From assembly GCA_963924555.1 (NCBI GenBank), contig OZ004594.1:806001-870000 (forward strand): a stretch of 64,000 nucleotides of DNA. The letters run 5' to 3'. The notes under the pieces were generated by a model, which saw nothing but the letters and a program-made list of their open reading frames with translations, was not told the origin of the DNA and ran no database searches. Source of the stretch: Crambe crambe (Eukaryota > Porifera > Demospongiae > Poecilosclerida > Crambeidae). Each line of letters opens with the position of its first letter. Position 1 is the stretch's first letter. Both the position numbers and the translations under genes were made by a program. This document shows, in pieces, positions 3,482-51,115 of the stretch.

Positions 3482-4245
3482 GTAAGTGTGATGGCGGAAA
3501 TGAAATTAGTGTGGATGACGACTATTGCCAATAAACACAGGTAGACAAATCAAGCAGGGTAAGAGTGATGGCCAGCTATTGCTAATTGACGTAGTGTCAT
3601 CCTGTCCTGCTCTAATTATTTCAATCATCTCTTCCACTGACACGATTTTTCCCTGAGCTTGACACCAGCCCCCCTCAGTCTCTCCTCTCTGTCAATCAAT
3701 CAGGTTGCACTGCACTGAGCATGCTCAGTAGTGACACACTGAGTTCATCCTCCCATTATTAGCATATACTGTTAGTACATGAAGATAATAGCCACTTGAT
3801 TTCCAATTTGTATCATGTAGCTAAGAGGCCTCTCTTCTCCTTCCATAATTAGGATGCTACAGCTTTCGACCAACCGCAGGCTGGCACTACAGCTAAAGCA
3901 AAGCTCATAATTATATTTAAATTGCAAAGAGATACACCTTGCAAATGAGTGGCTTGCAAGATGTCATAAGCACCATGGCTATGGACTATAGTAACTGTAT
4001 CCCATGGCATAAACCAGGAACAATCTTCATTTTCTCTGCAGATGCTCTGAGTCTGATGCTCACCGCCAGTTGATTTGGAATGGGACCTATGAGATGAAAA
4101 GTGTATGCAGATCAGCAAGGCTTGTATGGTCATTATGCGTCCATATACGTGTTATGCAAATGATGCGCCCCATGCGCCACGCCCAAGGTCCTTCAAAACA
4201 GAAATCAAGAGCACAAAGCATCTGCTGCCTTAAAAGAAACTCGCT
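3482..4245. other. Junction region upstream of unit B gene
   Basis: No convincing coding exon is seen. From 4138 the sequence is shared with the 5' flank of the unit C gene (from 15997) and gives the 5' UTR of the coiled-coil/Roc-COR/Death gene. It includes GCGCC-rich sequence about 90 bases before the ATG. Between about 3575 and 4137 nothing matches other parts of the window that I can see. Confidence 0.5.
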
Positions 4246-7200
4246 ATGGAAGAGGAGGAAGAGGAAAAGTTTCAAAAGGTAAGAAAACTATCATGTGGTG
4301 CCCATATTTTTTGCCTGTGTACATGTCCTAAGCTTATTTAAAAGATTTATGTGTAGACAGCTACAGTACAGCTAATCAGAGATAATCAAAAAGGCCGCCT
4401 AGGCGGAAAGACTGCAGCTGGCGAGTCATTATCTAGCAGCTGCTGATTTTAGTCCAGACACTATCTAGACTAGCTGTGCATTTGTTTAGGTGTAGAATAT
4501 TCTTTAGGTTTGAGTAGAGCTATGCCATTGTGTAGTTAGCTACTTAGTGTGCTAGTGTGACTGGTTTGTTTCCTCACAGATAAAGGAACATGAGGAAGAG
4601 ATAAGGAAATTAAAGAGAGTAAGTTGTTTGTGGAAGTAGTTGCTTGTGTTGGTCCAGTGCCTCCAGCAAGACCCTCCAGTCACTGCAAGCACCTTAGGCC
4701 CATAGCAGGAGGCACATAATACATAGCAACAGCCTGTTAAGATTGAGGGGTGCTCGTTTGCAGGGAGGAGTTGCTTGTTGGAATGCTGGACTACTCGACC
4801 TTAAAGCAGTTACCTCCAGTATTATTTGCCCCACTGTTTTGAGGGTGCTCCTCATCTGGAATTACCACAGGAAGGCCAGACCCCCTGTTCAATTTTATGA
4901 CCCAAATGCTGACTCAGCATAAATCCCAGTGCACCTCTGCCGGGGGGAGTGGGTGGGGTCTTGAGACCCGTGTACCCCATGGCACTATTGAGCATAACAT
5001 ATAACGAAGGTTCTCCATGTTTGGAGTCTGCAGCTCAAATGCCTTGCATGCTAGACCCCTGCTCAATTTTCGACAGACCATAATACCCCCATGCGGGTCT
5101 GCCGAGGGAAATGGGCGGGGCCTGGTGGCTCATGACCCCCATGACCTTCTGGAGCATACTTCACTCTACACGTTCTCCAAGTTTGGAGGCCGTAGCTCAC
5201 ATGCTGTGCGTGTGGTGATTTTTTTTTGTGGTGCATGATGGCTGTCTTTGTGTGTTGGTTGTATGGTTGTCTCACCTTCTCTCTCTCACTCCTCACAGGA
5301 GAAGGCAAACTATCAGAGGATGATAGAGATCTATGAACAGGTGAGTGATGAGTGTAGCAGTGGTGTGATGAGGGCGTGGCATGTGGCCCAGTCCATACCT
5401 AGTGTGTATTCCATGTGTGCAGAGGATTGCTAGATGCAAGGAGGAGTTGGACCAGCCCTCCCTGTCTGTGGAGAGGAGGAAGGAGCTGGAGGGGAAGGTG
5501 CAGATGTATGAGGGATTCATCCAGAATATTAAAGAAGACCTCCATAAGTATGAAGAAGAAATAAAGGAGAGAGAAAATGCCCTCAGGCAACTGAATTGTA
5601 AGTATCAAGATGTATAAGTACTTGGCACTAATTAGATGATGTAGCAGTACATGGTGTAATGTAAATAATACCCCCAAGCTAAAATAAGTGTGTGGTATAT
5701 GTAGCGCATGTAATTAGTAGTTGTAGAAATTAATTAGTGGTTAATTAAAAGTAGGTGAAAATAATTAAAGTTTGAAAGGCCATAACTTTTGAATGGAAAG
5801 TGCTATAGTCTTCATTTCAACACCATTCTGCTCAGAAAAATTCTCTCTTCTCTCTGTACAAGTGATATCATTCTCTAAGACTTGTGCTATCTAGATAATT
5901 AATTTTATTACTTTCTTTAAAGGAACTTTATAGAATATAAGTGACTTTCTGTTATTTATAGTGGATATATTCACAAAGTCCTTCTTCTCTCTTCATTAGC
6001 TTCTTCTCCTGGACCCCCCAGACCTCCTGAACCCCCTGGAGCTCCCTCTGAGCCTGTCCTTCCAGCTGAAGGACCCACCAACCCTCCTACTGAACCTGGT
6101 GAGCTGACTCCTAGTAACCAAATGCAGCAACAAGTCACTCACAGACCAGAGTGGACTTACTGTATCCCTTGTGCAGGAATCAGACATCTTGTCCTTAATT
6201 AACTGTCTAAGGTGCCTGTGCAATATAGAGATATCGGTAATGAGCCATAAGCGGCTTTCCACACTTACCCCTCAGAGTTCTCATCATAATATTATGTTGT
6301 GGTATTCTCTCTTCATGCTATAGGTGGAAAGAAAGAGGCACTGGCAACATCAATGGATGATGACAAAGGTAGGATGACTTTTAGTTCTAATTAGTAAGCA
6401 CCCTCCACTCCCCCTTAAATTCAACCTCCTCCTTAACCCAAAGTGATTATATTTACGCAGGAGTGACGTTGTCAAGTCCTCTGGATGAAGCCACTAGAAT
6501 AAAATTGGTGAGTAGAATACATGTGTCGGAGTCCTTGTAAGCATGAGTCCAATAATAACATGTTTCCTACTAGAGAAATGCAATGCATTGTGGGGCGAGC
6601 CTGAGCTGAATGTGATGCATGTTCCCTTTTAGCAAGGGTGAAACAATGAGAATGGCCTCTCTTTCTGAAAACAATCTCTGGTCTGCATTCTCTGAGACTG
6701 GCCAGCTGTCTGTGACATCAACTGCTGACTTACACTCTCCCTCAAGCGCTGTCTGTGATGTGCTGAATGTGATGCATGTGAGAATGGTCTCTCTTTCTGA
6801 AGACAATCTCTGGTCTGCATTCTCTGAGACTGGCCTCTCTTTTCCTCAGCTGTCTGTGACATCAACTGCTGACTTGCACTCTCCCTCAAGCACTGTCTTT
6901 TCTCTGTAGCTGTGCTTTGAGCAGGATGTCTTGCCTTCTATCTCGTACTTTCTTCTCCTTGGAAGAACGCTAATTTGATCCATTCTTTAGTAGCTAGCTA
7001 GCATCTGCTATTCGATGCTTGAGGCATTCTTTTCTCTGGGCCAGCATTGTCTCTAGATTTCTCGATCTACGCGTTCTTTCTGTTCAGCTAGCCTCTATAT
7101 AGCTCTCTTAGCTTATAGCACATGTTTATATACGCATGTGCGTCTACTGCACTGTGATGTAATGTTACCAGATGATCGTCACAGAGAAAAACCACTATTA

Positions 7201-9731
7201 TATAATGCGAATTCTAGAGCCAACTCGCTTGCTCAGGCTCGCCCCAATCATGTGGAAAGATTTCCAGGCTTTTATATTCTGATCATTTTTCATAGCATGA
7301 CAATGCAATGGAGAAAGGGCATGTTGATACGAGTATTATCAAGGCGGTAATTGTGGGGGCAGCTGGAGCTGGCAAGTCCTCTTTCGCATCTCTCCTTTTT
7401 GACGTCATTCTTCCACATTTCCGAATCAGTACGGGAGTCATCGAGAAAGCCAAGAGGGTCATGACCACCTGTCTGAGGTTAGGCATGACTGAAGCACTAA
7501 ACAATCAAGTCTGGGAGGTGGTTGGAGCTGAGGAACTTATAACTATTCTTGCAGACGCCATCAACGCGAGCATTGACGTTGATTCCACTTCTTCTGGTGT
7601 TTTCGTGCAGCAGAAATCAAATAATGGAGCTTCGAAAGAGCATGGAAGTTTTGATTCGGCCAGTAGCTCAACGTTTACCGACTACACTGTGGCCAGAACG
7701 ACTGTGATCAAGCTGATTGGTCGATCCAAGAAAGGTAGATTGCTGAAAATGACTTGGATCTACATCATAGACAGTGGAGGGCAGCCTCAGTTCCACGAGC
7801 TTCTTACGGCTTTCCTTCGAAATGCTACACTCGGTATCTTCGTTTTTAGGCTGTGCGATCAGCTTGATGATAAACCGCAGATCGAATATTATGGGGAAGA
7901 TGGCAAGTCTCTTGGTGAATCGTATCCTTTTCCCATGAGCCACAAGGAAATCTTCCAGCACTGTGTCCAGACCATCTATTCCCTTCCCTCCACTGCCTCT
8001 GCAGAGAAGGGGCAGGAGGCACCTCGGCCTAAAATCTTAGTAGTTGGGACGCATCGCGATAAAGAAGAAGATTGTCCCGAGAGTCGTGAGCAAAAGGATC
8101 AGGTGCTTAAAGGTATTTTGCACCCTGGATCAGAGTCCGACTCAAGACCAGTTAGTGATGTCATCTACTATGGGAAGGGTTGCATATTCCCCCTCAATGC
8201 TCGATCACCAAATGCAGAAGACAAGGAAGTAGTTGGTAAAGTTCGATGTGAAGTGGAACACCTTGCACCTCCACATACACCGATCCCCCTCCAATATTAT
8301 GCCCTCGAGCTGGAAATCGAAAAGCAATTGAAAGATAATCAGCAACAGGTCATAAGCGTTCACGATTGTCTAAATATTGCACGTTCTCTCCATTTCACAG
8401 AATCCGCAGGCAGAGCAGCTATCCTTCATCTCGACAGTCTCAACCTCATTCAGTACTTCCCTTCGAGTGCTGAGGAAGTCATCTTCTGTGATCCCAATGT
8501 CCTCCTCAATAAGGTAAACGAGCTGATCAAGAAGAGCTACAGCTTGAGAGGTGGCGTGGAGCTTATAGCCGATACTGGTGGAAAGTGGATCAACTTCCAT
8601 CAGCGTGGTGAGGTGACCTTGGATATCCTTGAAAAGTTTTCTTATGGTTATGTGCCAGGTCTGTACGACCACCACACTGTGGTCAAGATCTTTGAAGATC
8701 TCTTGATTCTTACCCCACTTGATCTCAACCTGTACTTCATGCCTGCTTTGCTTGATATCAAGAACGTCAAAGATATTCAGCGACCAACCAAAACTTGCCT
8801 CATAATAGCTTTCCCCTCGGGGTATGCCCCCTTGGGACTCTTTTCTTCTTCTGTTGCTTTTCTTACTTCAACCAAAAACAAGTGGCCTTCTCGTTGGAAG
8901 TTTTTCCTTAAAAGTGGTCAACTCTTCAGGAATGCGATCACCTTTGAAGCAGGTTTGGCTCGTGTCACTTATTTAGATCTTTCCACTTACTTCGAGATTC
9001 ACGTGGAGACCCGTGTTGAATGTGCTGTTGCTACCATGCGCCAAGTGGTGAAGACTGGTGTCTGCAAAGCTCTCGACGAATCTATCAGAGTGCGCAACAT
9101 CAGCAATGCTTCCTACACTCTTACTTTTCCATGTCCCTGTGACTCAAAGGTTGGAAATGGGTGTAAAGATTTTCATTTGGCAGAGATAGATGATGAAAGT
9201 CTACCAGGAAAGAAGTTCTGGAAGTGTAAGAAGAATCCAGGTGAATGTGGTGAGCTTGAACAACACCATGTGGAGTGGCTGAGCACACAAGAAAAGGAAG
9301 CTGAAGCTAAGAAGGGTAATAATATAAATATGTACTGGAGGTTTGATACGATAATCTCTCTCCCCCTTCCCCTCCACCCACCACACACTGTAGACACTCG
9401 GTGTTCTCTTGGAATGGTTGACCATTTTGAAGTGACTCAGCTGCTTAAAGAGCTAGACAAGAATTCTGTGATAGTGTTGGGGACGGCTCTTGGATTATCC
9501 TACATTGAACTGAAGAAAATGGAGATGTTTCCAGGAGATATGATTGCTGCCTGGCTTAGAGGAGATGATGACGTTAACAAAACGAGTGGTCCTCCCAGCT
9601 GGGAGAGTCTAGCCACAGCTCTCGATAAAACTTGTCACACAGATATAGCCTCCAAGGCCAGGAAGGTGAGTATGGAAGGAGAGGCGGAGAGCCACTACTT
9701 AATATTGTTATTCCAATTGCAGAAGAAATGA
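4246..9731 (+). CDS. Coiled-coil / Roc-COR GTPase / Death-domain protein, copy 1
   Basis: Ten exons keep frame: 4246-4278, 4580-4618, 5299-5340, 5423-5597, 6000-6098, 6324-6368, 6461-6507, 7296-9315, 9394-9665, 9723-9731, giving 926 aa. Residues 1-116 are an acidic coiled coil and about 117-149 are proline-rich. The GTPase follows with G1 GAAGAGKSS (about 181), G3 DSGGQ (about 319) and G4 VGTHRD (about 412); THxD is the usual G4 of Roc domains. A COR-like region spans about 500-740, then a Cys-rich stretch (CPCDSKVGNGC), then a Death domain from about 834. Family knowledge: ROCO-type proteins with Death domains signal in innate immunity or cell death; the ligand here is unknown. The ATG at 7308 is internal, not the start. 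Intron 8 (9316-9393, 78 bases) is open in frame, so retention would add 26 residues. Expression and role are inferred. Confidence 0.85.
6580..6910 (+). repeat. Imperfect tandem duplication inside intron 7, open on both strands
   Basis: A block of about 125-145 bases encoding LSENNLWSAFSETG is repeated as LSEDNLWSAFSETG, followed in both by LSVTSTADLHSPSS. The pattern lies in intron 7 of the copy 1 gene and recurs at 18480-18765 in copy 2. It could be an alternative exon, because the duplicated frame stays open and ends in TAG. Its conservation between B and C says little, since the introns are nearly identical anyway. Confidence 0.4.
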
Positions 9732-10254
9732 TTGTTGATGTTCCTCCTTCACTTTCAAGTCCACTCTAACACTCAGGTGAGCTACTAGTTGCATTGGTAC
9801 AAGAAGGGGGGGCAGTGGGCTAAACTTTGTCGTTGAACTCGGGGGCTACACTTTGTGTCCTCTTTAAGGGACACGTGCATAGTCACAGGCCCAGATAGTA
9901 GAATTGACCGCCTTCCCTTGAATTCTGCAAGGCATCGCTTGAGACTTCCTTGGGGTCATTAATCTGTATTATGTGATTCTGCAGATCCAGCTCCTTTCAT
10001 TCTATATGCCTTCCTTGGAACTCAATATGCACATCTTGTATTAATTTTTTTATTTTGTAATTGGTAATAATCGTTAATCTATAAACCTATCGATCGCGTA
10101 TATATAATTGACGCGTGATTCTGACGACCTTTACCAACATGTCTAGAGAATTCCAGTCTTTATCAGTTTTGTACGAGTCATCAAGAAAAACCAGCACCGC
10201 CTTGATGATAGCATGCACCTCAGCTCATCTGTATGTTGCGGCGTTAAAACTTTG
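9732..10254. other. Unit B spacer after the Death-domain gene
   Basis: Colinear with 996-1530. No gene is visible. It probably holds the 3' UTR of the upstream gene. Confidence 0.55.
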
Positions 10255-11688: not shown

Positions 11689-12249
11689 CTATCCCATCTC
11701 AGGCATCCTGCATGAGCAATGGATAGCAACTTCTTGTGCAGCCTTTATCATACTTTGCCTTATTCTTCGTTTTCGCAGGGTTGGGAAGAGTGTCATATTT
11801 TTATTTTCCAAGCATTTAAATAAATGACTCCTCATTTTCTTTTGGTCGAAACAAAAATTCTGAGGCATTTCCCCAAAAACTAGAGCCGTAGCATATGCTA
11901 TAGCAAAGAGGCCACAATCAGATGATCCAGATTGAAGCTGAACATCGATAAAATGAAGAATAATTGAAGAATGTGGTGTTATAAGGATGGAAGCAATCTG
12001 TTGTTGCAATTCATCACATGCAGTTGAATAAACACTATCATAAATATTGACAACAGGATGATCAGTGCCTATAGTTGATATAGTGACCCAATGACCAGCT
12101 CCAGTATTAAGAATTTGAATAAATTCACCGCGTTGAACTTCAAAGATAAGAGTCAAGCCGAGTGAAACTTTCTGCAAACCTTGAATTGGGCAGACTTTTT
12201 TAAGCAAAATCTGGGCAGCATCAACTATGTTGTAATACTTCCTTGTCAA
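11689..12249 (-). CDS. Ulp1/C48-type cysteine protease domain of the Ginger element
   Basis: An open exon of about 185 codons shows the deSUMOylase-type catalytic set in order: His in GHWVTIS, Asp in NIYDSVY, and Gln plus Cys in QLQSGSSDCGLF. The first codon is TTG and the frame is open from an upstream splice site, so this is the C-terminal exon of a larger product. A Ser/Pro-rich linker exon (about 12300-12570) connects it to the transposase. Family knowledge: some Ginger1 elements carry Ulp1 or OTU proteases, probably acting on SUMO-like conjugates during transposition. No stop is seen in this domain, but the upstream transposase is broken. Confidence 0.75.
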   Translation of the reverse strand: MTRKYYNIVDAAQILLKKVCPIQGLQKVSLGLTLIFEVQRGEFIQILNTGAGHWVTISTIGTDHPVVNIYDSVYSTACDELQQQIASILITPHSSIILHFIDVQLQSGSSDCGLFAIAYATALVFGEMPQNFCFDQKKMRSHLFKCLENKNMTLFPTLRKRRIRQSMIKAAQEVAIHCSCRMPEMG

Positions 12250-12299
12250 ATTTTCTCAAGCCTATAATTCTGGAATCCACATAATATCTACTTGCTCAA

Positions 12300-16109: not shown

Positions 16110-19100
16110 ATGGAAGAGGAGGAAGAGGAAAAGTTTCAAAAGGTAAGAGGTGGTGCCCATATTTTTTGCCTGTGTACATGTTCTAAGCTTATTTAAAAGA
16201 TTTATGTGTAGACAGCTACAGTACAGCTAATCAGAGATAATCAAAAAGGCCGCCTAGGCGGAAAGACTGCAGCTGGCCGGCGAGTCATTATCTAGCAGCT
16301 GCTGATTTTAGTCCAGACACTATCTAGGGCTCTAGCTAGCTGCGTATTGTTTAGGTGTAGAATATTCTTTAGGTTTGAGTAGAGCTATGCCATTGTGTAG
16401 TTAGCTACTTGAGTGTGCTAGAATAGTTGCTGTGACTGGTTTGTTTCTTCACAGATAAAGGAACATGAGGAAAATATAAAGAAATTATTGGAGGTAAGTT
16501 GTTTGTGGAAGTAGCTGCTTGTGTTGGTCCAGTGCCTCCAGCAAGACCCTCCAGTCACTTCAAGCACCTTAGGCCCATAGCAGGAGGCACATAATACATA
16601 GCAACAGCCTGTTAAGATTGAGGGGTGCTCGTTTGCAGGGAGGAGTTGCTTGTTGGAATGCTGGACTACTCGACCTTAAACCAGTATTGTTTTGAGGGTG
16701 CTCCTCATCTGGAATTTCCACAGGAAGGCCAAACCCCCTGTTCAATTTTATGAACCAAATGCTGACTCAGCATAATCCCTGTGCACCTCTGCCGGGAGGA
16801 GTGGGTGGGGTCTTGAGACCCGTGTACCCCATGGCACTATTGAGCATAACATGTAACGAAGGTTCTCCATGTTTGGAATCTGCAGCTCAAATGCCTTGCA
16901 TCTAGACCCCTGCTCAATTTTTGACAGACCATAATACCCCCATGCGGGTCTGCCGAGGGAAATGGGCGGGGCCTGGCGACTCATGACCCCCATGACCTTC
17001 TGGAGCATACTTCACTCTACACGTTCTCCAAGTTTGGAGGCCGTAGCTCACATGCTGTGCGTGTGGTGATTTTTTTTTGTGGTGCATGATGGCTGTCTTT
17101 GTGTGTTGGTTGTATGGTTGTCTCACCTTCTCTCTCTCACTCCTCACAGGACAAGGCATTCTATCAGAGGTGGATAGAGTTCAGGGAACAGGTGAGTGAT
17201 GAGTGTAGCAGTGGTGTGATGAGGGCGTGGCATGTGGCCCAGTCCATACCTAGTGTGTGTTCCATGTGTGCAGAGGATTGCTGAATGCAAGGAGGAGTTG
17301 GACCAGCCCTCCCTGTCTGTGGAGAGGAGGAAGGAGCTGGAGGAGGAGGTGCAGGATTATGAGGGATACACCCAGAGTTGTAAAGAAACCATCCAAAAGT
17401 ATGAAGAAGAAATAAAGGAGAGAGAAAATGCCCTCAGGCAACTGAATTGTAAGTATCAAGATGTATAAGTACTTGGCACTAATTAGATGATGTAGCAGTA
17501 CATGGTGTAATGTAAATAATACCCCCAAGCTAAAATAAGTGTGTGGTATATGTAGCGCATGTAATTAGTAGTTGTAGAAATTAATTAGTGGTTAATTAAA
17601 AGTAGGTGAAAATAATTAAAGTTTGAAAGGCCATAACTTTTGAATGGAAAGTGCTATAGTCTTCATTTCAACACCATTCTGCTCAGAAAAATTCTCTCTT
17701 CTCTCTGTACAAGTGATATCTTTCTCTAAGACTTGTGCTATCTAGATGATTAATTTTATTACTTTCTTTAAAGGAATTTTATAGAATATAAAGTGACTTT
17801 CTATTGTTTGTAGTGGATATATGAAGTAAATATGTGTATATTCACAAAGTCTTTCTTCTCTCTTCATTAGCTTCTTCTCCTGGACCCCCCAGACCTCCTG
17901 AACCACCTGGACCTCCCTCTGAGCCTGTCCTTCCAGCTGAAGGACCCACCAACCCTCCTACTGAACCTGGTGAGCTGACTCCTAGTAACCAAATTCAGCA
18001 ACAAGTCACTCACAGACCAGAGTGGACTTACTGTATCCCTTGTGCAGGAATCAGACATTTTGTCCTTAATTAACTGTCTAAGGTGCCTGTGCAATATAGA
18101 GATATCGGTAATGAGCCATAAGTGGCTTTCCACACTTACCCCTCAGAGTTCTCATCATAATATTATGATGTGGTATTCTCTCTTCATGCTATAGGTGGAG
18201 AGAAAGAGGCACTGGCAACATCAATGGATGATGACAAAGGTAGGATGACTTTTAGTTCTAATTAGTAAGCACCCTCCACTCCCCCTTAAATTCAACCTCC
18301 TCCTTAACCCAAAGTGATTATATTTACGCAGGAGTGACGTTGTCAAATCCTCTGGATGAAGCCACTAGAATAAAATTGGTGAGTAGAATACATGTTGGAG
18401 TCCTTGTAAGCATGAGTCCAATAATAACATGTTTCCTACTAGAGGCAATGCATTGTGGGGCGAGCCTGAGCTGAATGTGATGCATGTTCCCTTTTAGCAA
18501 GGGTGAAACAATGAGAATGGCCTCTCTTTCTGAAAACAATCTCTGGTCTGCATTCTCTGAGACTGGCCAGCTGTCTGTGACATCAACTGCTGACTTACAC
18601 TCTCCCTCAAGCGCTGTCTGTGATGTGATGCATGTGAGAATGGTCTCTCTTTCTGAAGACAATCTCTGGTCTGCATTCTCTGAGACTGGCCTCTCTTTTC
18701 CTCAGCTGTCTGTGACATCAACTGCTGACTTGCACTCTCCCTCAAGCACTGTCTTTTCTCTGTAGCTGTGCTTTGAGCAGGATGTCTTGCCTTCTATCTC
18801 GTACTTTCTTCTCCTTGGAAGAACGCTAATTTGATCCATTCTTTAGTAGCTAGCTAGCATCTGCTATTCGATGCTTGAGGCATTCTTTTCTCTGGGCCAG
18901 CATTGTCTCTAGATTTCTCGATCTACGCGTTCTTTCTGTTCAGCTAGCCTCTATATAGCTCTCTTAGCTTATAGCACATGTTTATATACGCATGTGCGTC
19001 TACTGCACTGTGATGTAATGTTACCAGATGATCGTCACAGAAAAAAACCACTATTATATAATGCGAATTCTAGAGCCAACTCGCTTGCTCAGGCTCGCCC

Positions 19101-21227
19101 CAATCATGTGGAAAGATTTCCAGGCTTTTATATTCTGATCATTTTTCATAGCATGACAATGCAATGGAGAAAGGGCATGTTGATACGAGCATTATCAAGG
19201 CGGTAATTGTGGGGGCAGCTGGAGCTGGCAAGTCCTCTTTCGCATCTCTCCTTTTTGACGTCATTCTTCCACATTTCCGAATCAGTACGGGAGTCATCGA
19301 GAAAGCCAAGAGGGTCATGACCACCTGTCTGAGGTTAGGCATGACTGAAGCACTAAACAATCAAGTCTGGGAGGTGGTTGGAGCTGAGGAACTTATAACT
19401 ATTCTTGCAGACGCCATCAACGCGAGCATTGACGTTGATTCCACTTCTTCTGGTGTTTTCGTGCAGCAGAAATCAAATAATGGAGCTTCGAAAGAGCATG
19501 GAAGTTTTGATTCGGCCAGTAGCTCAACGTTTACCGACTACACTGTGGCCAGAACGACTGTGATCAAGCTGATTGGTCGATCCAAGAAAGGTAGATTGCT
19601 GAAAATGACTTGGATCTACCTGATTGACAGTGGTGGGCAGCCTCAATTCCACGAGCTTCTTACGGCTTTCCTTCGAAATGCTACGCTCGGTATCTTCGTT
19701 TTTAGGCTGTGCGATCAGCTGGATGATAAACCACAAATTGAATATTATGGAGAAGATGGCAAGTCTCTTGGTGAGTCGTATCCTTTTCCCATGAGCCACA
19801 AGGAAATCTTCCAGCACTGTGTCCAGACCATCTATTCCCTCCCCTCCACTTCCGCTGTAGAGAAGGGGCAGGAGGCACCTCGGCCTAAAATCTTAGTAGT
19901 TGGGACGCATCGCGATAAAGAAGAAGATTGTCCCGAGAGTCGTGAGCAAAAAGATCAGGTGCTTAAAGGTATTTTGCACCCTGGATCAGAGTCCGACTCA
20001 AGACCAGTTAGTGATGTCATCTACTATGGGAGGGGCTGCATATTCCCCCTCAATGCTCGATCACCAAATGCAGAAGACAAGGAAGTAGTTGGTAAAGTTC
20101 GATGTGAAGTGGAACACCTTGCACCTCCACATACACCGATCCCCCTCCAATATTATGCCCTCGAGCTGGAAATCGAAAAGCGATTGAAAGATAATCAGCA
20201 ACAGGTCATAAGCGTTCACGATTGTCTAAATATTGCACGTTCTCTCCATTTCACAGAATCCGCAGGCAGAGCAGCTATCCTTCATCTCGACAGTCTCAAC
20301 CTCATTCAGTACTTCCCTTCGAGTGCTGAGGAAGTCATCTTCTGTGATCCCAATGTCCTCCTCAATAAAGTCAACGAGCTGATCAAGAAGAGCTACAGCT
20401 TGAGAGGTGGTTCAGAACCTCTAGCCGATACTGGTGGAAAGTGGATCAACTTCCATCAGCGTGGTGAGGTGACCTTGGATATCCTTGAAAAGTTTTCTTA
20501 TGGTTATGTGCCAGGTCTGTACGACCACCACACTGTGGCCAAGATCTTCGAAGATCTCTTGATTCTTACTCCACTTGACCTTGATCTCAACCTGTACTTC
20601 ATGCCCGCTTTACTTGATATCAAGAACGTCAAAGATATTCAGCGACCAACCAAAAAGTGCCTCAATATAGCTTTCCCCTCGGGGTATGCCCCCTTGGGAC
20701 TCTTTTCTTCTTCTGTTGCTTTTCTTACTTCAACCAAAAACAAGTGGCCTTCTCGTTGGAAGTTTAGGATTAAAAGTGGTCAGCTTTTCAGGAATGCAAT
20801 CACCTTTGAAGCAGGTTTGGCTCGTGTCACTTATTTAGATCTTTCCACTTACTTCGAGATTCACGTGGAGACCCGTGTTGAATGTGCTGTTGCTACCATG
20901 CGCCAAGTGGTGAAGACCGGTGTCTGCAAAGCTCTCGACGAATCTATCAGAGTGCGTAACATCAGCAATGCTTCCTACACTCTTGCTTTTCCATGTCCCT
21001 GTGACTCAAAGGTTGGAAATGGGTGTAAAGATTTTCATTCAGCAGAGATAGATGATGAAAGTCTACCAGGAAAGAAGTTTTGGAAGTGTAAAAAGAATCC
21101 AGGTGAATGTGGTGAGCTTGAACAACACCATGTGGAATGGCTTAGCACACAAGGAAAGGAAGCTGAAGCTAAAAAAAGAGAAGGTAGGTCATTAAAACCT
21201 TGACACTATATAGTGATAATCTGTCCT

Positions 21228-42848: not shown

Positions 42849-45800
42849 TGCAGATTGCTGACAACCTGCAGAGGAAGATGAGGAACCGTCCGGGACGAGA
42901 TGATCTCTTGCAAATGAATATATTGCCAAGTCAGTATTATAGTGTTAGAATACAATAGAGGGCCTTAATAAGGGGGAGGAGGGGGAGGTGGTTACTATGA
43001 GATACTGACCTTTGTTTGATTTTTGCTGTATCTGCATTGTTGGCTTTGCTATGTCAGCATTATTGGGTGGGATGGGGGGGGGGGGGGGGGGGGGGGCTTG
43101 ACCTTTCATCCCAAGTCATGGATTTCTCACAAGTGAGGCAACCTTTGTGAGGTTCCTCTCGGGGTTATTGTGGTTAGAAGGGGGGAAGTGATGCAGTGTC
43201 CTCTGTCAAGGTGCTGACTGTTGAGATAATGTTTTTGCTTCCTGAAAACTGAGAGTCTTGAAGTCTCATTCCCTGGGCCAGTGTGTGGTGTTTTGAGGTA
43301 GAGTGTTTGTGTCTAGGGGCTGGTGAACCGGTTAGTTGTCTCACTATAGGTGGCATAATTAGGATGTGGATAGTGTACATGTGTGAGAAGACTGACCAGT
43401 AAATTTATTGTATTTCCATTTCCTTGTATAAAAAGGAAACATTATCTTTTCCCCTTTCCCATGACACTGCCCCCTCTAATTAGATCACTAATTAGTTACT
43501 GCAAATAATAATAGTATAGACTTTTTTTTATTAAATGGATTATTTTAATTCCACCAGATCTGCAGCATAACATAGATCCAGGCCTCCATGCCAAGCAGCT
43601 GCAACTGAAGAAGAGCAAGCTCGCAGACACTCTGAATGACAAGATAGCAAAGCGTCCCGGGCCATTGCAGCTGCTCCAAAGTGGAATAATCGAACCCCAA
43701 CTCTCTGAAGTTGTCAAGGGATATGAATTGGAAAAGTCATCCTCTCCTACTAAAGAGACTCAAGGGTCTTCTGTGGGTGTCCCGGAAATCTCTTTCCACT
43801 CAGGAGAGAGTTACGGTCGTCAGAGTGCACCGCCATTGCACCAACGACACTCAATTGCAGGGACGTCCCCTTCATCGGACATGTTATGTATGGACACCAG
43901 TCCCGGCCCCAATGATTCTTCTACTAATTTCTCAGGGGAGACACGGAAATTTAGCGATTCATCAATCAGTCCAGCCCCTTCTCCCGGAGGAAGTTTGGAT
44001 GAGGCCAAGTCCCCTCGTGGATTCACTGCCTCGTACCCCTCAGCTCTAAAGAGCAGCCTCTCATCTGGGGTGTTGAACGCCATGACAAAGACTCAATCAC
44101 CAAGCACCCTACGCAAGAAGCAGCAGAAGAGATACAGGAAGCTTCGTTACCACGAGTATGTCCCACCGACCAAATCCACGCCGAAGGGTGGGAAAACCAC
44201 TCCCAAACTCTCATCTAATTCGGACAGTCCTTACTCTGCCCTGCTTCAACAACAGCAGCTGTTTCTCCAACTTCAGGTCCTCCAGCAACAGTATCCAAAT
44301 GGTGTTTTGATGCAGAAGTTACCAGATATGATCAATAATCTGACCAAAGAACAAAAGGCCTTGGCCATCGCTGCCGCTAAGGGGCGTATTCCAATCACGA
44401 GTCCCTCAGATGTGTCCCTGAACAAGCAAAGTGTCCCTCAAATTCTGCCAGTCGAACTGCCCAACAAGCACAACACGGCATCAATCCGATTTGAGGACTT
44501 GAAAGTGAACGATCTGAAGGCGTCTTGTAAAGAGATGGGTATGATAGTGTCGGGGAAGAAAGCCGAGTTAGTGGAGCGATTGATGGATCACAATAAGGGC
44601 ATGCTTCCTGCTTCAGCACTGCCTGATAATCCCTCAAAGGACAGTCGCCGACAGGCCTTCAGTCAAGGACACTTGTCATCAGTGGAATCGCAATTCTCAA
44701 CCTCGACAGTGTCTCCCACTTCACCAAACACTTCTCCTGTTTTCAAATTTCCCTCGGATCGAGCGACACATGACAGCAGTGCTTCTGCTGGTAAGCAGTC
44801 CCTGGTCCAGCTCCCAGAGGTATTTCCTGCGTCTAGTCTCCACAAGGAATTCAACGAGATGATCGAACGGCAGAAACGAAACTACATCTGCCAGAAGGGT
44901 ATGTCGGAAAAATCCATCGCCCCACGGCCGGAGTTAACAGACTTGCTTGCTATTAAGCTTCCTCCTCCTTCCTATCCCATGACCTCGGCTTCTTATGTGG
45001 ATCAACCACGGACAAAGGGGAGCACCCTTACCAGTAATGGACGAGCGTGTACTGCTTTGGAATCGCGGGTCCAACAAATGGCATCTGATAAGGTCTCCCC
45101 ACAGTCCCTTCCCTCTAGTCCCAAACCCAATTCTCCCAGCAATGCTCCCACGTTGGAGATGATGGAATCTACTACATCCGAAACCAAGGTCCTCTCTCAT
45201 TCTTCCTCTCCTTCTAACATTCCTTCCTCCCTCCAATCTTTCACGAGTACTACTTCTTCAGCTAACGATATGACCATGAGTCAGGTACCCATGTTGAGTG
45301 GTGGTGGTATCAATTCTGTTATTGCTGCTTCATCTGATTCTCAGATGGGTGGTGGGGAGGGCGTGGTTTCAGTTGCCGGGGGGAACCCTCTTTCTTCTGT
45401 GTCATATTACCAGCAGCAGCAATCTGCGTTACATCAGAACAAACGCCCGGTACGTTCCTCCATGCCTGCTCCCCAGTCGCATTCTCCAAACCCACCCACC
45501 GGTCCCCCGAGCTACAGCAGTGTGATGCGGTCACGGAGTATTGCCGGAGTGCATCCCAACTTGCAGGGACTCCCGCACGCAGGCATGAACAAGTAAGCAT
45601 GTTCTTTAAAGCTATTTCCTTGTGTGTGTGCTTAGAAAGCATTCAATGTCAGTAATACACTTTTGTTCCTATAGTGCATTCTTCTCTAGTGTACTTAAAA
45701 GCATATTGTCAGTAATACAAGCATTTATCAGTTGTATGTATGTTTACAATCATAAACACTTGGTTCCTTTCCTTATGAAAGTTGACAGAACAGGAGGAAA

Positions 45801-47648: not shown

Positions 47649-48599
47649 CTACAAAGTAGTTTTCTCCTGTTCACTTTCCACAAAGTCATCAAATAAGGAA
47701 GGCCATGCCTCCGACTCATCATAGTTACTTAAATCTGGAAGAATTGTCTCAATAAAAGGTAGAAACATATTCCAAGTGTCTCTGGATATTCCCTTGACTC
47801 CACTGCTTTTGAGAAAGTTGAACCATTGCTCTAAGATGACCGGTCTGTTCTGTGTGAACACTAGATCCCACAGAGGTACTGCCATGGTGATGGGCAAGGA
47901 CCTTTGACCTGTCGAATGATCAAGTCCGAAAGAAAATGTGAAATTGTACAGTTCTTTGAAGTTTGTTTTGTCTCTAGCCTTGACCAGTAGTTCAGGGAAT
48001 CTCTCTTTGAGACTCTTGGCATTATGGGCCTGCATCTTCTGACAGCCATTCATGAACTCCTCCTTCGTAAATCGACACATTTGTGAGGCTTCAAACTTCC
48101 ATGCCAAAACCAACACGATAAACTCAGTGGGGTCTACTCCTAAATCTATACAGAACTTCTCCATACCCTCCGCTAAGATGGAGTCCTCTTCAGGATCTTT
48201 GTACTTGTTGAAGTACTTCTCTATTTGAGCATGCTTGCTTTGTGTCGACTGAGAAGAAGGCTGGCGTGTGAGTGAGAATTGCCTTGAAGGAACACTCCTT
48301 TCTCCTCCATTGCTGAAGCTGCCTCTATGAGGGACCTTTTGTGACACGGATGATGAAACGGAGCCATTCTGTCTGGGAGCTGTGTGCGTGTGTGACGTGC
48401 TGGTATGTGTAAGGTTCCTTCCACTAACTTCACTGGAATTTGAGTATGAAGTCGCACTGGTGTCGGAACGTGAAGATACAAAACTGCTCTTACTCCCCGT
48501 TTTGCGTTTACTCTTCTTTGGCTTACTTGACGTAGATGCCTCTTTAGAAACATAGTTCGAGGTAGCTTTGCCCCCAGTTTGACTCTGCCCTTGTCCCAT
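47649..48599 (-). CDS. DCUN1D3: DCUN1D3-like cullin neddylation cofactor
   Basis: An intronless frame of 316 aa. The C-terminal PONY domain (about residues 130-310) contains FCIDLGVDPTEFIVLVLAWK, RFTKEEFMNGC, FTFSFGLD, SLPITMAVPLWDLVFTQNRP and ISRDTWNMFLPF, and ends with DESEAWPSLFDDFVE. The Asp, Ala and Asp of the cullin-binding patch are present (RDTW, EAWP, FDDF). I start at the ATG at 48599, not the in-frame GTG three codons earlier. The resulting MGQGQS fits an N-myristoylation signal (MGxxxS), as DCUN1D3 (MGQCVT) has and other DCN1-like proteins lack. The Ser/Thr-rich N-terminal part has no fold. Role: membrane-tethered promotion of NEDD8 transfer to cullins. Confidence 0.92.
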   Translation of the reverse strand: MGQGQSQTGGKATSNYVSKEASTSSKPKKSKRKTGSKSSFVSSRSDTSATSYSNSSEVSGRNLTHTSTSHTHTAPRQNGSVSSSVSQKVPHRGSFSNGGERSVPSRQFSLTRQPSSQSTQSKHAQIEKYFNKYKDPEEDSILAEGMEKFCIDLGVDPTEFIVLVLAWKFEASQMCRFTKEEFMNGCQKMQAHNAKSLKERFPELLVKARDKTNFKELYNFTFSFGLDHSTGQRSLPITMAVPLWDLVFTQNRPVILEQWFNFLKSSGVKGISRDTWNMFLPFIETILPDLSNYDESEAWPSLFDDFVESEQEKTTL

Positions 48600-48763
48600 T
48601 GCGCCCACTTTCTTGGTAAATTCAAGAAGAGCTCCGATATTATGAGTGCTTCAGTTATTTTTGATGCCTTTCTCCGAGTTTCATCCCAGGTTTGATGAGC
48701 TGGTCATCCGGAAGCGTGTGACCGCAACTAATTGATTATGAAATTACTTAATGACATCGTGAT

Positions 48764-50544: not shown

Positions 50545-51115
50545 AGGTAAAGCGGGGTGACTTGGGACACGGGGTAACTTGGGACGGTGGAGTTATATTT
50601 CAATCTTGCTTCGAGATTTACTAAGAGTTTCAAGATCTTATTTTGCACACATAAACAATTATGCTTTGTCTCTCTCTGAATCCAATCTAGAGTGATTTGG
50701 TTACTCTGTTGGTAATAAGCAGCCCTAAACACTCTGCTGATTTTACAAGACCGCAAGAAAAAACTTAATAAACTAACTTCAAACTCACTGAACTGATTTA
50801 TTATTCACTGAGATAACGCTGCATAATGATCTCTGTGTTTTAAAAAAGTGATAAGTCAGCAGAATATGCATAGTGCACTGTTTTAGCTTTATCAAAATTG
50901 CATGGACATGCAGTGTCCCTGAAAGGGATTTCTGCATACTACACATGGGCGAATTGTAGCCAATTAATTAGTAAGCAATGCCAATCATCTTTAGCTCAAC
51001 CTGGGACTAGAAAAGTTACTCTATCTCTTGCAACTTAAAGCTTGTTTATAGCTAAAGCGGTTGCAGAGATATCATCATTTGTAGTAAGAGTGTCCCAAGT
51101 TACCCCAATCTACCT
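50545..51115. mobile_element. 571-bp TIR element inserted in the 17-bp minisatellite
   Basis: Perfectly placed TA duplications (50543-50544 and 51116-51117) split one minisatellite unit (GATG-TA-CAGCAGG). The ends are 26-base inverted repeats differing at three positions: left AGGTAAAGCGGGGTGACTTG and right, read inverted, AGGTAGATTGGGGTAACTTG, both continuing GGACAC. A second GGGGTAACTTGGGAC follows the left end. No coding sequence is found. TA duplication and the size suggest a Tc1/mariner-related MITE. Confidence 0.9.

Follow-up and report, generated by a model that had tools for sequence, protein, structure and literature searches.

We analysed a window of 64,000 nucleotides from the sponge Crambe crambe (contig OZ004594.1, positions 806,001–870,000 of the forward strand), to which coordinates refer unless another locus is named. 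Near its start lies a forward-strand gene (copy 1) that we modelled with eight exons, all canonically spliced, whose joined reading frame spans 971 residues. Exon 1 (4246–4278) carries the start codon and an acidic N-terminus, MEEEEEEKFQK; its ATG follows an upstream in-frame stop, and the frame runs through a GT donor into exon 2. The next three exons are small and would together encode two helices. Exon 2 (4580–4618, with AG/GT borders) supplies 13 codons for the first part of predicted helix 1, exon 3 (5299–5340) has 42 nt, or 14 codons, the length of two heptads, and exon 4 (5423–5597) has 58 codons and one further base, covering the predicted end of helix 1, a Q-P-S turn and helix 2. Exon 5 (6000–6098), a proline-rich linker, and the linker exons 6 (6324–6368) and 7 (6461–6507) were placed by splice sites and frame and lead to exon 8 (7296–9731), a large open frame that is Roc-COR-like in approximately its first 675 codons. 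The frame's final ~130 codons are uncertain and probably include an intron and a further exon, because the frame of a second copy ends earlier (at 21203) and several copies have stops there. This copy 2, also on the forward strand, has exon 2 at 16455–16493, exon 3 at 17150–17191, exon 4 at 17274–17448 and its GTPase exon as an open frame at 19152–21203. A sequence-only reading had placed exons 2–4 of both copies at these same coordinates, and their splice sites proved to be canonical (AG/GT).

Elsewhere in the window, an open reading frame between the two GTPase genes (11689–12255, reverse strand) had a weak, below-cut-off match to Ulp1-type peptidases (E = 0.003). A long frame with a SAP domain (43515–45596, forward strand, E = 5e-9; by eye myocardin/MRTF-like) and a gene for a cullin-binding protein (47649–48650, reverse strand, E = 3e-32; by eye DCN1-like) are both of animal type. 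A tandem array of 17-base units, with 70 register copies in the repeat listing, starts at 50980.

The large exon and its relatives

The window protein matched the Pfam Roc domain at E = 5e-5 and 23.9 bits, below the cut-off of 27, which its relative P0012 passed with 38.4 bits. A profile built from 35 relatives matched LRRK2 (E = 1e-7, profile positions 243–529) over what we take to be its ROC-COR part, and because of this match the large-exon protein is probably a ROCO-type (Roc-COR) GTPase. COR-A scored below its cut-off in the relatives P0005, P0012, P0076 and P0095 and in L025, a member of a second gene family, C8 (32.9 bits against 35.3), and the Pfam matches listed for the window protein did not include COR. 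Neither NACHT nor NB-ARC, by which an NLR would be recognized, appeared in the lists of Pfam matches of the window protein, its relatives or the C8 copies. Exon 4 had no Pfam LRR match. By eye the C-terminus of the GTPase protein resembles a Death motif, but Pfam Death gave no match in window positions 9351–9728 or in L027 at 5833–6216.

Over approximately the first 675 codons of the GTPase exon, 15 copies had a pN/pS of 0.31 at a mean pS of 0.136, and none of the 15 had a stop in the aligned stretch; this exon is under purifying selection. Among the best 120 of 242 GTPase relatives, two carried a eukaryote name, both from the sponge Ephydatia muelleri (P0044 and P0095), at 30% identity. Screening 519 candidates, all proteins of similar length, with the N-terminal 130 residues gave none at E = 0.01, so that the putative hairpin of exons 2–4 was unseen in other species within that set. 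GTPases on contig 18 (24 matches) were 57–63% identical to that of the window, and the GTPase of L025 was 23% identical. L025, L026 and L027, C8 members on contig 8, carry the same putative hairpin module on this distant Roc-COR-like GTPase. Downstream of C8 copies lie open frames with immunoglobulin I-set matches, and the tail of L027 also looks Death-like by eye.

Divergence of exons and introns

Between copies 1 and 2, exons 2, 3 and 4 differed by 8, 9 and 16 bases (33 of 256). All 20 differing codons were replacements, 10 of them with multi-base changes, and there was no synonymous codon pair. Intron 3 differed at one of 82 bases and intron 4 was near-identical over its first ~280 bases (1 of 283 different), and each of these contrasts reproduces what the sequence-only reading had claimed. 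Intron 2 differed at 14 of 656 aligned bases, and the exons differed from introns 2–4 in their rate of change with a Fisher p of 2.5e-13. Across 673 codons of the GTPase exon the same two copies had 36.5 synonymous and 21.5 replacement differences (pS 0.081, pN 0.014); their close similarity is confined to the surroundings of exons 2–4.

Further copies were read over exons 3 and 4, giving 49 in all: 15 from contig 17 (C17), 18 from contig 18 (C18) and 16 belonging to the C8 family, one of which lies on contig 15. The relic L024 was excluded from the C17 counts, L032 and L037 from the exon 3 counts (leaving 47), and five of the 49, in which the search located no exon 2, from the exon 2 counts. 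Among the 15 C17 copies, mean divergence was 9.7% in intron 1, 2.0% in intron 2, 1.0% in intron 3 and 6.3% (median 2.9%) in intron 4. Since divergence is much higher in intron 1 and at the silent sites of the GTPase exon, introns 2 and 3 are either younger or more homogenised than the rest of the gene. Differences in the exons did not grow with divergence in the introns (Spearman −0.23), and the closest pair (0.57%) differed as much in its exons as the others.

Nearly all differences among the C17 copies fell in 25 of the 85 codons of exons 2–4, the other 60 differing in ~2% of pairs per position. The variable codons were 7, 9, 10, 12 and 13 in exon 2 (from the codon table of 15 copies), 1, 4, 5, 7, 8, 11 and 12 in exon 3, and mainly 1, 4, 25, 28, 32, 35, 36 and 39 in exon 4 (from codon comparison among copies). 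Full-length exon 3 copies (47 of 49) had 8–16 amino acids at each of the seven variable codons and at most four at any framework codon (AAG GCA / CAG / ATA GAG / GAA CAG). These framework codons were near-invariant, silent sites included, and in the 47 copies the same amino acid appeared in two spellings at only three variable codons (four amino acids in all) and two framework codons. The C17, C8 and C18 families share most of their variable columns in exons 3 and 4, and many of the fixed residues of exon 4 differ between them.

Divergent exons might in principle arise by neutral divergence, through relaxed constraint or as an artefact of assembly, and tandem arrays are in general difficult to assemble. 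The variation, however, kept to the same columns throughout the 49 copies, which lie on several contigs, the reading frame was kept in 48 of 49 copies in exon 3 and likewise in exon 4, and silent change was nearly missing, which makes such an origin hardly credible.

Selection and mutation

pN/pS exceeded 1 in all nine tests of exons 2–4 in the three families, with values from 1.8 to 13. Together with the shared variable codons and the purifying selection on the GTPase exon, this bears out the very strong diversifying selection that the sequence-only reading had offered as one explanation. The other, a targeted mutation process, fared differently once third bases were considered. In the hypervariable codons of C17, positions 1, 2 and 3 differed in 49, 42 and 26% of pairs, and transitions made up 13% of third-position differences, against 47 of 63 intron sites. 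Simulated selection at omega 100 and a per-lineage depth of 0.006 gave 45, 48 and 24% at the three positions, 12.6% transitions, 1.6% synonymous pairs (observed 1.8%) and 15% of codons ending in A (observed in C17, 12%). Simulating a raised mutation rate at equal depth gave 55% at position 3, 57% transitions and 11% synonymous pairs. This lack of silent third-base changes, transitions above all, is a strong argument against a raised mutation rate, and somatic or germline hypermutation, in which silent change rises along with replacement, does not describe these exons.

Diversifying selection for amino-acid change fits the data at an omega of ~100, a rough figure that comes from a star tree without recombination, from 25 variable codons chosen from the same data, and from introns 2 and 3 as the yardstick, when intron 1, intron 4 and the GTPase silent sites are more diverged. 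Such a value lies outside usual experience. An omega of 30 would need ~2% per lineage, or 4% between copies, against the 1–2% observed in introns 2 and 3.

Exon 3 departed from this simple model. With a depth of ~0.3%, as in the flanking part of intron 3, a star model needed an omega of 200–400 and still missed the third-base pattern, and we rejected such a model for exon 3 across all families on its third bases. In all three families codon 4 always ended in either C or G (16 of 47 copies in G, where ~2 were expected) and codon 12 in either T or G, and A was near-absent from the third position of the variable codons (2 of 329, against ~11–24 expected, depending on settings). Two-base sets common to the families suggest a pool of variants that was exchanged between genes rather than independent mutation.

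A predicted variable helical face

The variable codons were spaced three to four residues apart, and variability had a period of ~101 degrees per residue over codons 6–36 and ~99 over codons 49–75 (permutation p = 0.0006 and 0.0012). On either side of the Q-P-S turn the two stretches are mirror images, correlating with r = 0.77 for an index sum of 76 and r = 0.74 for one of 80 (permutation p = 0.0003, in a test that also rewards a helical period common to both). The sequence-only reading had seen a coiled coil here. The period of ~100 degrees and the mirror symmetry are what one would expect of an antiparallel two-helix hairpin around a proline turn, with one variable face, and such a hairpin is more likely than a coiled coil. 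This predicted face is turned 60–100 degrees away from the conserved hydrophobic side instead of lying across from it, and a role in helix pairing is therefore possible.

Among the 47 exon 3 copies, all seven variable codons were identical in only two pairs, and the codons assorted at random within the exon, across families. Very fine-scale recombination or saturation would each give random assortment.

The exon 3 cassette

Exon 3 is embedded in intron sequence that is shared far more widely than the rest of the module. In copy 1 the left flank is the last 69 bases of intron 2 (5230–5298) and the right flank the first 60 bases of intron 3 (5341–5400), both on the forward strand. Genome pattern searches found 72–73 occurrences of the cassette, on contigs 8, 15, 16, 17 and 18. 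With up to three mismatches allowed and indels not covered by the patterns, the left flank had 73 matches (64 exact, 9 with one mismatch) and the right flank 72 (58 exact, 14 with one); neither had any with two or three, and reversed controls of both gave 0. Because the matches are exact or one mismatch away, the flanks appear to have undergone a recent, star-like spread. The pattern for exon 3 itself had 100 matches at up to three mismatches; 11 of these fall inside a contig 15 minisatellite, and chance probably accounts for some of the weakest ones. That minisatellite array (L059, 6583900–6589300) holds 79 exon-3-like units by pattern, 48 of them full-length, in which framework positions vary more than in the genes (0.030 against 0.011) and variable positions less (0.09 against 0.36). 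We considered its 59-base units as a donor array and rejected them, as they look like a degenerate minisatellite.

Between families, comparing 44 of the 49 copies (L032, L036, L037, L038 and L050 were excluded for indels), positions 5219–5298 differed by 0–0.9% and 5341–5380 by less than 1%. Intron 2 elsewhere was mostly 10–45% different, with one 40-base dip to 4–6% at 4779–4818, and exon 4 differed by 24–54%. The simplest reading is that a cassette of ~70 nt of intron, the 42-nt exon and 60 nt of intron has been exchanged across families, for which the near-identical flanks are indirect support. Of the targeted replacement or mutation that the sequence-only reading had put forward, the replacement part would thus survive, as exchange between paralogues, and the mutation part does not.

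Constraint is the rival to exchange. The flanks could be identical through function, for example in controlling the splicing of a microexon, in which case the rest of the module would be the clock and selection only moderate. Regulated small exons typically have conserved intron borders, and the borders of conservation were similar in the families compared. Yet identity above 99% over 129 scored intron bases in 72–73 copies exceeds what splicing elements usually need, and the C17 yardstick was the rest of intron 2 (~2%), which is mostly not conserved between families. The flanks have also diverged in L064, which lies directly upstream of a stop-free GTPase frame (88% identical), so that they are dispensable there; they have diverged too in L063 and L065, and intron 3 is shortened in L023. 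A structured cassette RNA was rejected, since its predicted folding was weaker than in 199 of 200 shuffles (z = +2.3), which likewise counts against a functional role of this kind, and we regard constraint as a doubtful explanation. No Rfam family matched window positions 4000–10000 at gathering scores, and an exact 33-base pattern from the cassette intron was found in none of the viral and prokaryote contigs.

Exon 2 was identical in L016 and L017 and in L011 and L012, and exon 3 in L028 and L029, with the other variable exons of each pair differing, as exon-sized exchange would give.

Recent tandem copies

The tandem copies L014 and L016 were identical over 2010 bases of the GTPase exon and differed at two of ~5,500 bases from L014 position 2500 onward, against 9 of 1337 in introns 1–4, 14 of 401 (with many gaps) upstream of exon 1, and 39 of 256 in exons 2–4. 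The 3′ part of the pair was recently homogenised or duplicated, whereas the 5′ part has a longer history, and even in so recent a pair the variable codons have reached saturation. Conversion of whole exons by existing paralogues was tried as the source of these differences and rejected, as comparison by eye of codons 7, 8, 11 and 12 gave no matching donor.

Saturation in so recent a pair might instead point to a dedicated diversification system, in which a master cassette and its flanks are copied into many genes and specified positions are changed en route, by a mechanism like that of diversity-generating retroelements (DGRs) or by templated gene conversion. Several observations would agree with it: the near-identical flanks on five contigs, which carry only rare single-base variants and end at similar points in the families compared; the limitation of third bases to the same few choices at the variable codons of three families; and the random assortment of codons across families. 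Against it, there is no single target base, framework A, C, G and T all being (nearly) invariant, and a mutator working on nucleotides would need to avoid the missing silent transitions by chance. We consider such a system unlikely. In its most specific form, a germline system in an animal would copy a ~170-base intron–microexon–intron unit among scores of receptor genes on five contigs and rewrite seven fixed codons on one helix face from restricted codon sets, which we hold to be a long shot. If true, germline rewriting would amount to an inherited, antibody-like library across Roc-COR genes and Roc-COR genes with immunoglobulin domains.

Discussion

We favour, with a probability of roughly 0.68, the reading that the hairpin of exons 2–4 serves a large repertoire of Roc-COR (ROCO-type) proteins as their variable recognition surface and is kept diverse by selection while the rest is homogenised by cassette-like gene conversion. 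The N-terminal hairpin would be the recognition surface of ROCO-type receptor proteins, and intense selection, positive or for rare variants as in immune or self/non-self receptors, would keep one of its faces different in nearly every copy. Gene conversion or unequal exchange, presumably acting in the germline rather than somatically, would homogenise the remainder of the N-terminal module between copies, and exchange of the microexon 3 cassette may reach across gene families on five contigs. Among the points against this explanation, gene conversion should homogenise the variable codons as well.

Similar contrasts are known from peptide-binding exons of the MHC and from the zinc fingers of PRDM9, which have a replacement excess at contact residues within homogenised surroundings. 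The sponge exons resemble both in this respect and differ from the MHC in that the raised silent diversity around its selected codons is missing. Diversity-generating retroelements, an adenine-specific bacterial system, likewise set scattered, highly variable codons in a fixed scaffold between identical flanks; on the evidence of the copies themselves, the sponge cassette follows no adenine rule, its framework adenines being (nearly) invariant and its variable sites of no single base.

The closest analogues that we found are the brown-algal LRR-ROCO genes and the fungal HNWD receptors. The algal genes carry tandem 72-bp LRR exons that are shuffled within genes and diversified on one face (PMC11378527, which cites Zambounis 2012). 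Like the sponge genes, they are expanded Roc-COR GTPase genes whose short, phase-matched binding-module exons, separated by introns, are under diversifying selection on one face. The sponge genes differ in having three fixed small exons (39, 42 and 175 nt) in place of tandem 72-bp units, a predicted coil or helical hairpin and no LRR, and variation between gene copies. The fungal NOD-like receptors het-d and het-e, allorecognition and immune sensors, are reported to combine concerted evolution with a few hypervariable sites under diversifying selection (PMC12222747). They share with the sponge module near-identical sequence kept by concerted evolution and few hypervariable sites, but their units are WD40 repeats inside one NOD-like receptor gene, whereas the sponge units are single exons in dispersed Roc-COR GTPase genes. 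In the open-access literature we found no description of this gene family in sponges, and a search of a paper on sponge NLRs (PMC12909245) for coiled coils, GTPases, hypervariability and diversifying or positive selection gave nothing.

The module behaves like a hypervariable receptor repertoire and may have an immune or allorecognition role. It is an extreme natural case in which selection sets adjacent codons apart and a cassette is homogenised across genes of different architecture; residue by residue, the pattern reveals the surface under selection. To our knowledge, the molecules behind self/non-self discrimination in sponges are unsettled. Sponges tell self from non-self with remarkable specificity (PMC5450542). 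A GTPase scaffold bearing a defined variable face, present in scores of gene copies, would be a concrete, testable candidate for that recognition.
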